In this document: positions 28,993 through 33,991 of the stretch, in pieces | Position numbering within the stretch: the stretch's first letter is position 1 | How the letters are laid out: every line of letters starts with the position of its first letter | Source: Thiobacillus denitrificans | GTDB taxonomy: Bacteria > Pseudomonadota > Gammaproteobacteria > Burkholderiales > Thiobacillaceae | NCBI RefSeq assembly: GCF_001530125.1 | Contig: NZ_LDUG01000021.1 | Coordinates: forward strand, 1-64,000 | Direction of reading: 5' to 3' | DNA: 64,000 nt | Made by a program: the position numbers and the translations under genes | Notes under the pieces: model-generated | What the model was told of the DNA's origin: nothing | Seen by the model: the letters and a program-made list of their open reading frames with translations, nothing else | Database searches by the model: none

Positions 28993-29274
28993 CTATGCAG
29001 CTTCCAGCACACGCATTTCGACGTGCAGGCCTGCGGCTGCCGCCATGTTGACCAGGGCATCCAGGGCAAACAAGTCGATCTTGCCGCGCATGAGGTCAGA
29101 GACGCGCGGCTGCGTGACGCCGAACAGCTTGGCAGCTTGCGACTGGCTGATGCCGACGCGGGCGATATGATTTTTCAAGGCCATCATCAAGACCGAGCGG
29201 AGCTTCATGTTTGCCGCTTCCTCGGGCGTGTCCTCGATGGCATCCCACACGCTGGCAAATCGTTTATTGCTCAT
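28993..29274 (-). CDS. XRE-type antitoxin (HigA-like)
   Basis: A 93-aa helix-turn-helix protein. The DNA-binding helices are GISQSQAAKLFGVTQPRVSDLMRG. It is encoded directly after its toxin with an ATGA overlap, the usual toxin-first order of HigBA-type systems. It should bind the palindrome upstream of the toxin gene to repress the pair, and neutralise the toxin by contact. Confidence 0.88.
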   Translation of the reverse strand: MSNKRFASVWDAIEDTPEEAANMKLRSVLMMALKNHIARVGISQSQAAKLFGVTQPRVSDLMRGKIDLFALDALVNMAAAAGLHVEMRVLEAA

Positions 29275-29609
29275 TGTTCTATCTCCTTCAACAAATCCCG
29301 GTAGCGTTTCGCTGCCAAGTCGATATCCGTCTTGCTGGTTTTCTGCGTTTTTTTCTGAAAGCAGTGCAGCACATAGACGGCATCGGCAAACTTGGCGACA
29401 TAGATCACCCGATACGCGCCGACTTCATCCCGAATCCGGATTTCCCGCACGCCCTGGCCTACCGTTGTCATCGGTTTCCAATCATCCGGTTCGCCGCCTT
29501 GCTGTACCTGGCCGATCTGGTGTCCAGCCTCGCGCCGCGCCGAGATGGGGAAGACACGCAGATCATCGAGGGCGCTGCCCCGGAACTCGACCGGCTTGGT
29601 ATCTATCAT
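29271..29609 (-). CDS. RelE/HigB-type toxin (Gp49 family)
   Basis: A 112-aa protein of the phage-related RelE-fold toxin group. Landmarks: FPISARREAGHQIGQVQQG, then REIRIRDEVGAYRVIYVAKFADAVYVLHCFQKKTQ, with basic residues of the kind used for ribosome-dependent mRNA cleavage. It overlaps the antitoxin start by 4 nt. The start at 29609 follows an AT-rich promoter with a palindromic operator. Confidence 0.88.
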   Translation of the reverse strand: MIDTKPVEFRGSALDDLRVFPISARREAGHQIGQVQQGGEPDDWKPMTTVGQGVREIRIRDEVGAYRVIYVAKFADAVYVLHCFQKKTQKTSKTDIDLAAKRYRDLLKEIEQ

Positions 29610-31933: not shown

Positions 31934-32161
31934 ATGGATATTGTTGACATGATCGTCCATGTAAACGAGACGATTCCCACCGAGAGAATGCACGAGCTGG
32001 AAGACGTGGTGCGGACCGATGCCTGCGTCATCAGCGCCTGCAGTTCGAACGAGAATCCCCATCTGCTGATGGTGACCTACAACCCCGCGTGCACGAGTTC
32101 CGGCTACGTCTTGAATATGATTCAGGCGCAAGGCGTTCACGCCAATCTGGTCGGGCTCTAG
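31934..32161 (+). CDS. Small HMA-like (ferredoxin-fold) protein
   Basis: A 75-aa protein with a beta-alpha-beta-beta-alpha-beta pattern like heavy-metal-associated domains: an N-terminal strand DMIVHVNE, helix RMHELEDVVR, strands ACVISACS and HLLMVTYNP, and a last helix. The HMA metal motif CxxC is missing, though three Cys occur elsewhere. It has a strong AAGGAGGTG ribosome binding site. It is the first of five small genes in the same direction. A CACTTTA/TAAAGTG inverted pair at 31837-31868 lies upstream and may be a regulatory site. Confidence 0.65.
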   Translation: MDIVDMIVHVNETIPTERMHELEDVVRTDACVISACSSNENPHLLMVTYNPACTSSGYVLNMIQAQGVHANLVGL

Positions 32162-32281
32162 CAAGCACCTTCGCGGCGGCGTTTCGCCTCCGATACGGTA
32201 TCGCGCAACGCGCCGCGAGCCCCGCTGGATTTCATGCACCTACGCTTAGCTTCAACACGCTTAGCTTCAAGGAGGACTCCC

Positions 32282-32581
32282 ATGAAACACATGACCATCG
32301 ACATGCCGATCGTATCCGAATGCCTGGCGAGTGAATGCGCCTACAACGTCGACATGAATTGCCACGCCAAGGCGATCACCGTGGGCAATAGCCTGCATGC
32401 AGGCTGCGATACCTTTTTTTCGGGTTCGGGCCACACCAGGGCGACCACCCGGACGGCAGGAATCGGCGCCTGCAAATCCACCAACTGCGCATTCAACGAG
32501 GATCTGGAGTGCATGACGGACAGCATTCGCGTGGCCCCGGCAGGTCAGGCGGTCAACTGCATGACTTACTCGCCGCGCTAA
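32282..32581 (+). CDS. DUF1540 domain protein (two Cys-rich repeats)
   Basis: A 99-aa protein with two copies of the DUF1540 motif: CLASECAYNVDMNCHAKAIT near the start and CKSTNCAFNEDLECMTDSI further on. A spacer with HAGCDTFF and a final Cys near the end complete the pattern. DUF1540 proteins probably bind metal through these Cys; their function is not established. A perfect AAGGAGG ribosome binding site precedes the ATG. Just before it, a tandem duplication of ACGCTTAGCTTCAA occurs at 32242-32271. Confidence 0.85.
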   Translation: MKHMTIDMPIVSECLASECAYNVDMNCHAKAITVGNSLHAGCDTFFSGSGHTRATTRTAGIGACKSTNCAFNEDLECMTDSIRVAPAGQAVNCMTYSPR

Positions 32582-32645
32582 TCGGCAACCGCCCCGGCCA
32601 AGGCGCCATCCAAGTTTACGATCTACAAACCGTGGAGGGATGCCT

Positions 32646-33002
32646 ATGTCACGATCATCCGAATTACTCAAGCTGCCTGGCGCGGTTGCCGCGGGTCTCT
32701 TTTCCCGCAAGGGGTTTTTGGAAGAGTTCGAAGGCCCTTTCCCTGCCAGCGAGGCTGCCGGGCTGGCAGGCTTGTGTTCCGCCATTACGCTGACAATGGA
32801 AATGCAGGGGCTGCTGCTGGAACGCTTAACCGGGGAACCCGGCTGGGCAGGCTGTTACGGCTGGGCAGCGTGGGGGCCAGGAAGCGCCATCGTCGCGGTG
32901 GACGACAGCATGTGCATTGTGCAGACACCGGCAACATCCTTCGACGAAGTGTTCTCGGCCATGCGAACGGCAGCGGGCGTCGAGGTCAGTGAAACCGAAT
33001 AA
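32646..33002 (+). CDS. DUF2173 family protein (paralogue 1)
   Basis: A 118-aa protein of the DUF2173 family, with the N-terminal motif LLKLPGAVAAGLFSRKGFL and a roadblock/profilin-like alpha-beta layout. The ATG at 32646 is preferred over 32640 because GGAGG then sits 7 nt upstream. The biological role of the family is unknown; I infer from gene content that it belongs with sulfur-oxidiser accessory genes. It lies 12 nt before paralogue 2. Confidence 0.75.
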   Translation: MSRSSELLKLPGAVAAGLFSRKGFLEEFEGPFPASEAAGLAGLCSAITLTMEMQGLLLERLTGEPGWAGCYGWAAWGPGSAIVAVDDSMCIVQTPATSFDEVFSAMRTAAGVEVSETE

Positions 33003-33014
33003 AAGGAGAATAAG

Positions 33015-33362
33015 ATGCCGACCCTGGATCAACTCATGCAGCTGCCGGGCGCTTATGGCGCGATCGAATTTTCCTGCGCGGGCGAGTTGGGTGACATGCG
33101 CGGCGAGCTGGAGCCGGATTTCGCCGAAATCGTCGCGCAGATGTGCGCCGCCAACATGGCCATCTATCGCATGCAAGCCACGGGCTGGGCGAAGCATACC
33201 GGTCAGCGGGGCTTCCTGCCCGAACGCGGCTTTGCCTTCCTGAGTCTCGACCATGTGATGATGGGGATGGACGGAAAGGCTGTCCTCGGACATAGCCTGG
33301 GGTTCAACTACGACCGGGCTTACCAGCTCTTCAATGAAAATGCCCAGGGAGACGCCGAATAA
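33015..33362 (+). CDS. DUF2173 family protein (paralogue 2)
   Basis: A 115-aa relative of the neighbouring gene, starting MPTLDQLMQLPGAYGAIEFS and containing the family segment VAQMCAANMAIYRMQATGW. It has a good ribosome binding site (AAAGGAG) and follows paralogue 1 by 12 nt. Sequence is clearly diverged from paralogues 1 and 3, so the triplication is old and the copies probably differ in role. Confidence 0.75.
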   Translation: MPTLDQLMQLPGAYGAIEFSCAGELGDMRGELEPDFAEIVAQMCAANMAIYRMQATGWAKHTGQRGFLPERGFAFLSLDHVMMGMDGKAVLGHSLGFNYDRAYQLFNENAQGDAE

Positions 33363-33372
33363 TTCACTATTT

Positions 33373-33460
33373 GTCATTGCGAGCGCAGCGAAGCAATCCA
33401 GAATGCCAGCGGAATCAAAGAACTCTGGATCGCCACGGCCCTGCGGGCCTCGCGATGACG
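33373..33460. repeat. Dispersed palindromic repeat, family B (copy 2)
   Basis: Starts GTCATTGCGAGCGCAGCGAA and ends CTCGCGATGACG, with inner CTCTGGATCG. It closely matches the copy in the narH-narJ gap. It sits between DUF2173 paralogues 2 and 3. Confidence 0.85.
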
Positions 33461-33478
33461 AAATCAATCAGCGCTTCC

Positions 33479-33617
33479 CTAGGGAGACGCTGATTAATCC
33501 GTCTTTGCGAGGAGCGAAGCGACGCGGCAATCCAGAAATGCCTGCTTAATCAATGCGCTGGATTGCCGCGCTTCGCTCGCAATGACGGTTATATCGAATT
33601 AATCAGTGTTTCCCTAG
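33479..33617. repeat. Family B repeat (copy 3) nested in another inverted-repeat element
   Basis: Outer inverted arms CTAGGGAGACGCTGATTAAT (33479-33498) and ATTAATCAGTGTTTCCCTAG (33598-33617) match in 18 of 20 positions. Between them lies a full family B hairpin (33500-33587; CTTTGCGAGGAGCGAAGCGA at the left, CGCTCGCAATGACG at the right). A third, inverted copy of the outer arm (ATCAGCGCTTCCCTAG) abuts on the left. Confidence 0.75.
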
Positions 33618-33655
33618 CAGCCCGGAGGCGATGGTGTCACAGAAGGAGATAGACC

Positions 33656-33991
33656 ATGACGGATCTAGCGAGTCTGCTTGAGATCAAGGGCGTGGTCGCA
33701 GCCCTGCGCTTTTATGATGACGGCACTCTGATGGAGGCGGCAGGCGAGATCGATCCGCTGCATACGGACCTTGCCGCGGAGTTGTGTTATGCCAATGGGC
33801 GCATCCTGCATCACAGCAGCGATGTCCTCACGACCATTTCCGGCAAGGCTGGCTGGCCGCCGCGGGGATGGATGATGATGGGTGACGAGCTGTCCATCTG
33901 CACCATCGCGAATGTGGTGTGTTTCGTGAAAAATAGCGAGGTGTCTTTCAACGAAACATTGAAAGTCCTGTCTGAGATTGAAAGTCAATAA
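33656..33991 (+). CDS. DUF2173 family protein (paralogue 3)
   Basis: A 111-aa family member: SLLEIKGVVAALRFYDDGTL at the start, then AAELCYANGRIL and GWMMMGDELSICTIANVVCF. The ribosome binding site AAGGAG is present. It is separated from paralogues 1 and 2 by about 290 nt of inserted repeats, and probably was once part of the same operon. Confidence 0.72.
   Translation: MTDLASLLEIKGVVAALRFYDDGTLMEAAGEIDPLHTDLAAELCYANGRILHHSSDVLTTISGKAGWPPRGWMMMGDELSICTIANVVCFVKNSEVSFNETLKVLSEIESQ

Follow-up and report, generated by a model that had tools for sequence, protein, structure and literature searches.

Roadblock proteins are known as regulators of small GTPases and as scaffolds of motors or lysosomes. 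The consulted parts of two articles describe them as small-GTPase regulators and as components of heteromeric complexes (PMC9481161, PMC4316618; PubMed Central identifiers). For the DUF2173 family, the part consulted of PMC11323534, the one open-licence article found that names it, reports that the gene of a DUF2173 membrane protein rises 99-fold and 32-fold on sulfur in two Sulfolobaceae and ranks with their most strongly induced genes, and Firmicutes DUF1540 proteins are treated, in the part consulted of PMC5322542, as single-membrane-span relatives of cydX. Here we analyze five small genes of Thiobacillus denitrificans that bring these families together. They lie on the plus strand at 31934-33991 of a 64,000-nucleotide stretch (assembly GCF_001530125.1, contig NZ_LDUG01000021.1, positions 1 to 64,000), hereafter the window, and encode a 75-residue HMA-like protein (HMA75), a DUF1540 protein and three DUF2173 proteins (R1, R2 and R3). 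An earlier sequence-only reading had taken the five genes for one metal-binding or regulatory module. That finding was real but mis-framed: the genes constitute two separate units placed side by side, the R1-R2-R3 triplet and the HMA75/DUF1540 pair.

All five open reading frames are preceded by Shine-Dalgarno-like sequences, as first noted, and are separated by 120, 64, 12 and 293 nucleotides (nt). HMA75 occupies 31934-32161, the DUF1540 protein of 99 residues 32282-32581, R1 (118 residues) 32646-33002, R2 (115 residues, 12 nt after R1) 33015-33362 and R3 (111 residues) 33656-33991. Ratios of nonsynonymous to synonymous substitution of 0.07-0.35, obtained against the relatives L117, L118 and L119 for all five genes and against L121 for R1-R3 (L, G and C denote our loci, genomes and contigs), indicate that all five are kept under purifying selection rather than being spurious reading frames; NCBIfam returned no match for any of the five proteins. 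The window genome, G000, comprises 3.29 Mb in 86 contigs, and the nearest named relatives of its R2 are Thiobacillus and 'Hydrogenophilales' metagenome-assembled genomes (MAGs). SoxB and DsrA are encoded in the genome and narH and nnrS within the window, which agrees with the description of the organism as a sulfur-oxidizing denitrifier.

The separation into two units becomes apparent once the locus is compared with others. We collected 80 named loci through a pattern of the position-2 protein and distinguish triplets resembling R1-R2-R3 (R type) from those resembling a second triplet of the window genome, S1-S2-S3 on contig C78 (S type). The five-gene order is found only in the window, L117, L118 and L119, four close relatives. 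HMA75 and DUF1540 are missing from the fetched flanks of 15 of the 18 named R-type loci, L117-L119 alone holding both, and G001 and G010 carry the pair with no DUF2173 gene on the fetched stretch. The conserved neighborhood of DUF1540 and DUF2173 envisaged at first is thus present in the four relatives, while elsewhere the units are separate. A single co-transcribed module of all five genes, with a metal or regulatory role, is very unlikely in our judgment. The shared strand, the gaps, the order common to the four loci and a promoter scan at chance level (one promoter-like site, 33334-33363, against 1.2 expected) favor such a module, but the loci that hold one unit without the other speak against it, as does the distance between HMA75 and DUF1540, which is 120 nt in the window and 335-1,702 nt in the other five genomes with the pair. 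The scan also gave five terminator-like sites against 2.8 expected and was uninformative as a whole.

The three DUF2173 proteins are clearly different paralogues, as the sequence-only reading had recognized: against a curated Pfam cut-off of 26.1 bits (PF09941), R1 scores 87.5 bits (E 8.7e-25), R2 102.5 bits (E 1.9e-29) and R3 108.8 bits (E 2.1e-31). What that reading, right about the genes themselves, had overlooked is that they form a triplet of fixed order and that a second, paralogous triplet exists in the same genome. DUF2173 matches occur in 22 of 25 genomes of the genus (in G005 only as a piece at a contig end), in none of the 16 that represent other families of the order and in 34 of 274 genomes of the class; three or six copies are present in 31 of these 34, two in G101 and one each in G102 and G236. 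Same-strand triplets account for 99 of the 102 complete and distinct DUF2173 clusters that were fetched, the remaining three being pairs: L058 (from G101), L160 and L186. This count covers clusters other than L042, L043 and L045-L048, whose genomes duplicate named loci, L053 at a contig end, identical copies, the single copies of G102 and G236, and the three copies each of G198 and G309; seven further clusters lay less than 500 nt from the end of the fetched sequence. L160 and L186 consist of positions 2 and 3 with no readable position-1 gene upstream and appear to be natural two-gene reductions. Searches with R2 and R3 gave no DUF2173 match in 72,556 plasmid records, and no description of a three-gene DUF2173 operon was found in the open-licence PubMed Central literature, represented mostly by titles and the beginnings of abstracts.

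How old this order is can be seen from a tree in which 37 triplets are represented by 111 proteins. It was built on 112 columns with the Shimodaira-Hasegawa-like approximate likelihood-ratio test (SH-aLRT) as its only support measure and came with a program warning about few columns and long branches. All 37 position-2 proteins form one clade (SH-aLRT 99) and so do all 37 position-3 proteins (SH-aLRT 98); R2 thereby groups with S2 and R3 with S3. Since both clades span R and S types, the order of positions 2 and 3 predates the split between the two types of triplet. S1, S2 and S3 are each a single clade as well (SH-aLRT 100, 99 and 100), and R-type position 1 forms no supported clade. Gene order and pairwise similarity, on which the assignment of R1 to position 1 also depends, suggest that this position too belongs to the ancient order. 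A joint alignment that included single position-1 rows was discarded, as MAFFT had placed these rows on the second domain.

Several observations concern individual members of the family. The last two residues of all 25 translated S-type position-1 proteins (e.g. L138:5599-5955) are Leu or Met and then Val or Ile, possibly a recognition tail. The longer S1 proteins of Thiobacillus have no such C-terminus. An R-type triplet is found in L126, a sequence named 'Rhizobium sp.' that is probably mislabelled and derived from the genus of the window, and L174, named 'Synechococcaceae', holds a triplet of Competibacteraceae type.

The second unit consists of two small proteins. Pfam returned no match for the window's 75-residue protein, and its HMA-like label is borne out at the level of the family, whose profile retrieves the HMA domains of copper ATPases from the PDB sequences with E values from 1.9e-11 to 6e-6. 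His 9 and His 43 are invariant in 18 aligned members, and the CxxC motif of the HMA metal site is absent from all 18. Two additional HMA75 copies are encoded on contigs C58 and C30 of the window genome. The DUF1540 protein, Cys-rich and putatively metal-binding, reaches 39.4 bits against a cut-off of 22.1 (PF07561, E 6.6e-10) in two stretches, which corresponds to the two repeats first described. These read C-x4-C-x7-C-x14-C and C-x4-C-x7-C-x15-C, and their eight Cys residues are kept in five of five aligned orthologues. Within the genus 5 of 25 genomes have DUF1540, and outside it none of 16 genomes of the order does; in a control set of 14 only Bacillus subtilis and Deinobacterium chartae carry it. 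The single PDB match of its profile, to a CRISPR Cse4 chain (E 0.02), is uninformative. HMA75 precedes DUF1540 on a common strand in six of six genomes (the window genome, G001, G010 and those of L117, L118 and L119). In G010 one strand (L051:5410-7941) carries an HMA-like gene, an EAL-HDOD gene, DUF1540 and a second HMA-like copy.

Both the DUF2173 and the HMA75 family are strongly associated with markers of sulfur oxidation. SoxB, counted at E < 1e-110, is present in 114 genomes (112 over the cut-off); DsrA, counted at E < 1e-30, is present in 94, of which 87 exceed the cut-off and seven hold fragments. Within the class, SoxB or DsrA occurs in all 34 DUF2173-positive genomes and in 92 of 240 negative ones (Fisher 2e-13); the corresponding figures are 32/34 versus 82/240 for SoxB alone and 25/34 versus 69/240 for DsrA alone. 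With one genome per family the association persists (20/20 versus 53/139, p = 3e-8). HMA75 is found in 46 of the 274 class genomes, all of them among the 126 with a marker and none among the 148 without (1e-18), with G248 counted as marker-positive on a DsrA fragment alone; one genome per family gives 30/73 versus 0/86. The prediction that HMA75 is missing wherever SoxB and DsrA are both absent was then tested in 49 named genomes, belonging to 49 of the 80 named loci: all 18 of R type, 13 Competibacteraceae (L179 not among them) and 18 others. HMA75 is present in 31 of the 34 that carry a marker, fragments counted, the exceptions being G317, G353 and G359, and in none of the 15 that do not. 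DsrA was examined in the 20 named genomes that lacked a full SoxB, of which five were positive, G315 and G328 by fragments below the cut-off. The two sets of genomes, from the class and from the named loci, overlap in part (e.g. L166 and L178) and are therefore not fully independent. Physical proximity was seen twice, with HMA75 about 100 nt from dsrA in G323 (C59:27702-27932) and about 2 kb from soxB in G304 (C21:52084-52305); no further case of HMA75 close to dsrA or soxB is among the coordinates listed.

The association is not one of strict dependence. Thirteen Competibacteraceae, all with S-type triplets, lack SoxB, DsrA and HMA75, and the R-type triplets of L124, a Contendobacter MAG, and L132 likewise occur without SoxB or DsrA. 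Because these lineages keep the triplet in the absence of the markers, sulfur oxidation is not strictly required for it, and a strict dependence, which we had considered, is ruled out by the Competibacteraceae.

At the level of structure, the DUF2173 proteins resemble roadblock proteins. R1 and R2 share one reading frame, and their read-through translation was aligned with 27 read-through pairs of relatives and modelled with AlphaFold. The resulting model (predicted local distance difference test, pLDDT, 83.2) displays the roadblock order of helices and strands twice, and its predicted template modelling score (pTM) of 0.81 cannot separate a heterodimer from homodimers. Foldseek searches with this model returned a Streptomyces roadblock/LC7 protein at the top (E 6.3e-5) and MglB (E 1.2e-4) among 21 matches at E <= 0.001. 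For its R1 part, VIA aligned 104 residues of 3kye with a root-mean-square deviation of 1.9 (Z 13.4); Ragulator and MP1-p14 entries gave Z 11.7-12.3 (12.3 for the Ragulator structure 5y39) and MglB entries Z 10.6-11.3 (11.3 for 6hjm). The fused translation of all three genes of L134, an R-type locus, yielded a model with pLDDT 76.9 and a pTM of only 0.66, which leaves the placement of its domains relative to each other inconclusive; its third domain, a relative of R3, matched 5y39 with Z 13.2. The models thus point to a roadblock fold for the first and third protein types. R2 was modelled with the same helix-strand order, and the VIA comparisons refer to the R1 part. The model further suggests that R1 and R2 form a defined roadblock-style dimer. 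Sequence comparison is less telling: against the Robl_LC7 cut-off of 23 bits (PF03259) R1 scores 13.5 and R2 and R3 are unreported, and the DUF2173 profile found one chance-level match among PDB sequences (E 0.97).

The fold raises the possibility that the triplet is an MglB-like regulator of a Ras-like small GTPase encoded elsewhere in the genome. MglB shares the fold, and roadblock proteins are, in the consulted parts of PMC4316618 and PMC9481161, widely tied to small GTPases. The genomic evidence argues in the other direction, as no GTPase is found among the eight window neighbors that were scanned with Pfam. Further evidence comes from PF00025, which we take to capture MglA. Among the matches listed, short frames scoring 34 bits or higher against PF00025 occur in 2 of 34 DUF2173 genomes (G088 and G171, with 183 and 165 residues) and in 20 of 240 DUF2173-negative genomes, i.e. 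without enrichment. Twelve further DUF2173 genomes have a listed match within a frame of at least 474 residues, 17 have weaker matches only (best E 5e-6 to 8e-4), and G059, G083 and G309 have none. Stand-alone matches being so few, a classical MglA/MglB arrangement is improbable for most DUF2173 genomes, and we consider this explanation of the triplet quite unlikely.

The neighborhoods of the S-type triplets could hint at another function. In 59 of the 76 distinct S-type triplets for which 700 nt or more of upstream sequence is available, a divergent RDD gene lies no more than 1.5 kb upstream, with the RDD identity checked by Pfam for two genes. The 17 sites without it are those of 13 Competibacteraceae together with L174, L064, L073 and L079. 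Beyond it, many loci hold lptF/lptG and pepA: the families containing pepA, lptF, lptG and holC of L138 are found in 31, 29, 28 and 26 of the 80 named loci, all of S type. The triplet might accordingly serve envelope or membrane physiology with the RDD protein as its S-type partner, and its link to sulfur would reflect lineage history, a view to which the retention of the triplet by Competibacteraceae without sulfur markers also lends itself. However, no RDD gene was found upstream of any of 20 R-type triplets searched, a set to which the window and L044 do not belong, and all 13 tested Competibacteraceae, the very lineage without sulfur markers, lack the RDD neighbor too. The placement of RDD beside lptG may, we presume, be an older arrangement, which also counts against this explanation; altogether we regard it as unlikely. 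The S type, the core form, has probably been kept vertically, and the R type, which is scattered, appears to be mobile.

Some features of these settings are recorded here in their own right. Competibacteraceae-type triplets without an RDD neighbor are L148, L151, L159, L161, L165, L174 and L176, and likewise L180, L181, L185, L187, L190, L191 and L195. In all 14 the position-2 protein has a C-terminal part outside the main match to the family profile. The genes ccoN and bioD, read from the sequences, adjoin L077 and L086 only.

The gap between R2 and R3 (33363-33655) sets the window apart from most other R-type triplets, being 293 nt long, whereas in those triplets about 30-40 nt separate the domains matched. 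Repeats before the last gene had been noticed at once, and they are confirmed by inverted arms at 33373-33401 and 33558-33586 that are 90% complementary and resemble repetitive extragenic palindromic (REP) elements, as well as by the strong hairpins of the insert (folding z = -8.0). Diverged versions of the insert in L117 and L118 and a short remnant in L119 show that it predates the window genome. Of 216 loci, five contain the exact core of the repeat, and each of the five overlaps the window itself. The end of R2 differs as well: in the window it is five residues longer than in L117-L119, which have the stop codon TAG where the window has CAG. Elsewhere in the window, an HTH_37 protein adjoins a Gp49-like (DUF891) protein at 28993-29609 on the minus strand, an arrangement that resembles a HigB/HigA-type toxin-antitoxin pair.

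Taken together, we give about even chances to the explanation that two independently conserved units have become adjacent in one Thiobacillus clade, one of them a heteromeric roadblock scaffold and the other a pair that handles metal, each contributing to sulfur chemolithotrophy. The R1-R2-R3 unit would be the additional copy of an operon whose three genes encode different roadblock-fold proteins. By analogy to Ragulator, its products most likely join into one soluble heteromeric scaffold, which could serve cells that live on reduced sulfur as a regulatory platform or adaptor and whose partner is probably something other than an MglA-like GTPase. The other unit would comprise two small proteins, both putatively metal-binding. 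As HMA75 lacks CxxC and was seen only in genomes bearing a marker, its likeliest task is to buffer, deliver or sense a metal while sulfur is being oxidized. We infer co-transcription, hetero-oligomerization, the scaffold role, metal binding and any link between the units, and hold the mechanism with moderate confidence.

Several points weigh against this explanation, in addition to the marker-less triplets and the limits of the two models given above. The association statistics ignore deeper relatedness, and among marker-positive genomes HMA75 shows no association with DUF2173 (16/34 versus 30/92, p = 0.15). The neighbors of R-type triplets vary between species and no conserved one appears among the neighbor families, so the surroundings point to no partner. 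Single HMA75 members match Pfam only poorly, reaching BRCT (3 of 18, best E 0.0012) or HMA (1 of 18, E 0.0025), and in G010 the EAL-HDOD gene interrupts the HMA75-DUF1540 pair. Finally, the archaeal DUF2173 protein induced on sulfur spans the membrane several times according to the part of PMC11323534 consulted, unlike the window proteins.

A bolder proposal, which we put forward only tentatively and hold to be somewhat doubtful, is that a heteromeric scaffold of three different roadblock proteins, the products of a single fixed-order operon, organizes dissimilatory sulfur oxidation without an MglA-type GTPase, and that the CxxC-less HMA protein is a new and almost exclusive component of this metabolism. 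If true, a roadblock trio of fixed order in sulfur oxidizers without enrichment of GTPases would be a new mode of use for the fold. HMA75, having been found only alongside SoxB or DsrA (46/46 in the class and 31/31 in the named set), is a candidate for a missing part of a well-studied pathway, and its role is directly testable in Thiobacillus. Searches of the open-licence PubMed Central literature for HMA or LC7 with sulfur and for roadblock with the RDD family found nothing.

How do the two units relate to described systems? HMA75 is profile-similar to the HMA domain (PF00403) of copper ATPases and CopZ, but it differs from these domains in being stand-alone, in lacking CxxC and in having been sampled only alongside SoxB or DsrA. 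R1, R2 and R3 all belong to Pfam DUF2173 by their scores. With MglB the R1 part of the model has the predicted roadblock fold in common. MglB, however, is a homodimer according to the consulted part of PMC9481161, whereas the window system comprises three different paralogues; moreover, its locus has no GTPase gene among the scanned neighbors, and few stand-alone Arf-type matches are listed for genomes of this kind. Ragulator and MP1-p14 differ in being eukaryotic and acting with Rag GTPases, and the sequence profile of DUF2173 gives no match to them; nevertheless, they resemble the triplet both in the modelled fold and in the use of several different roadblock proteins within one system.

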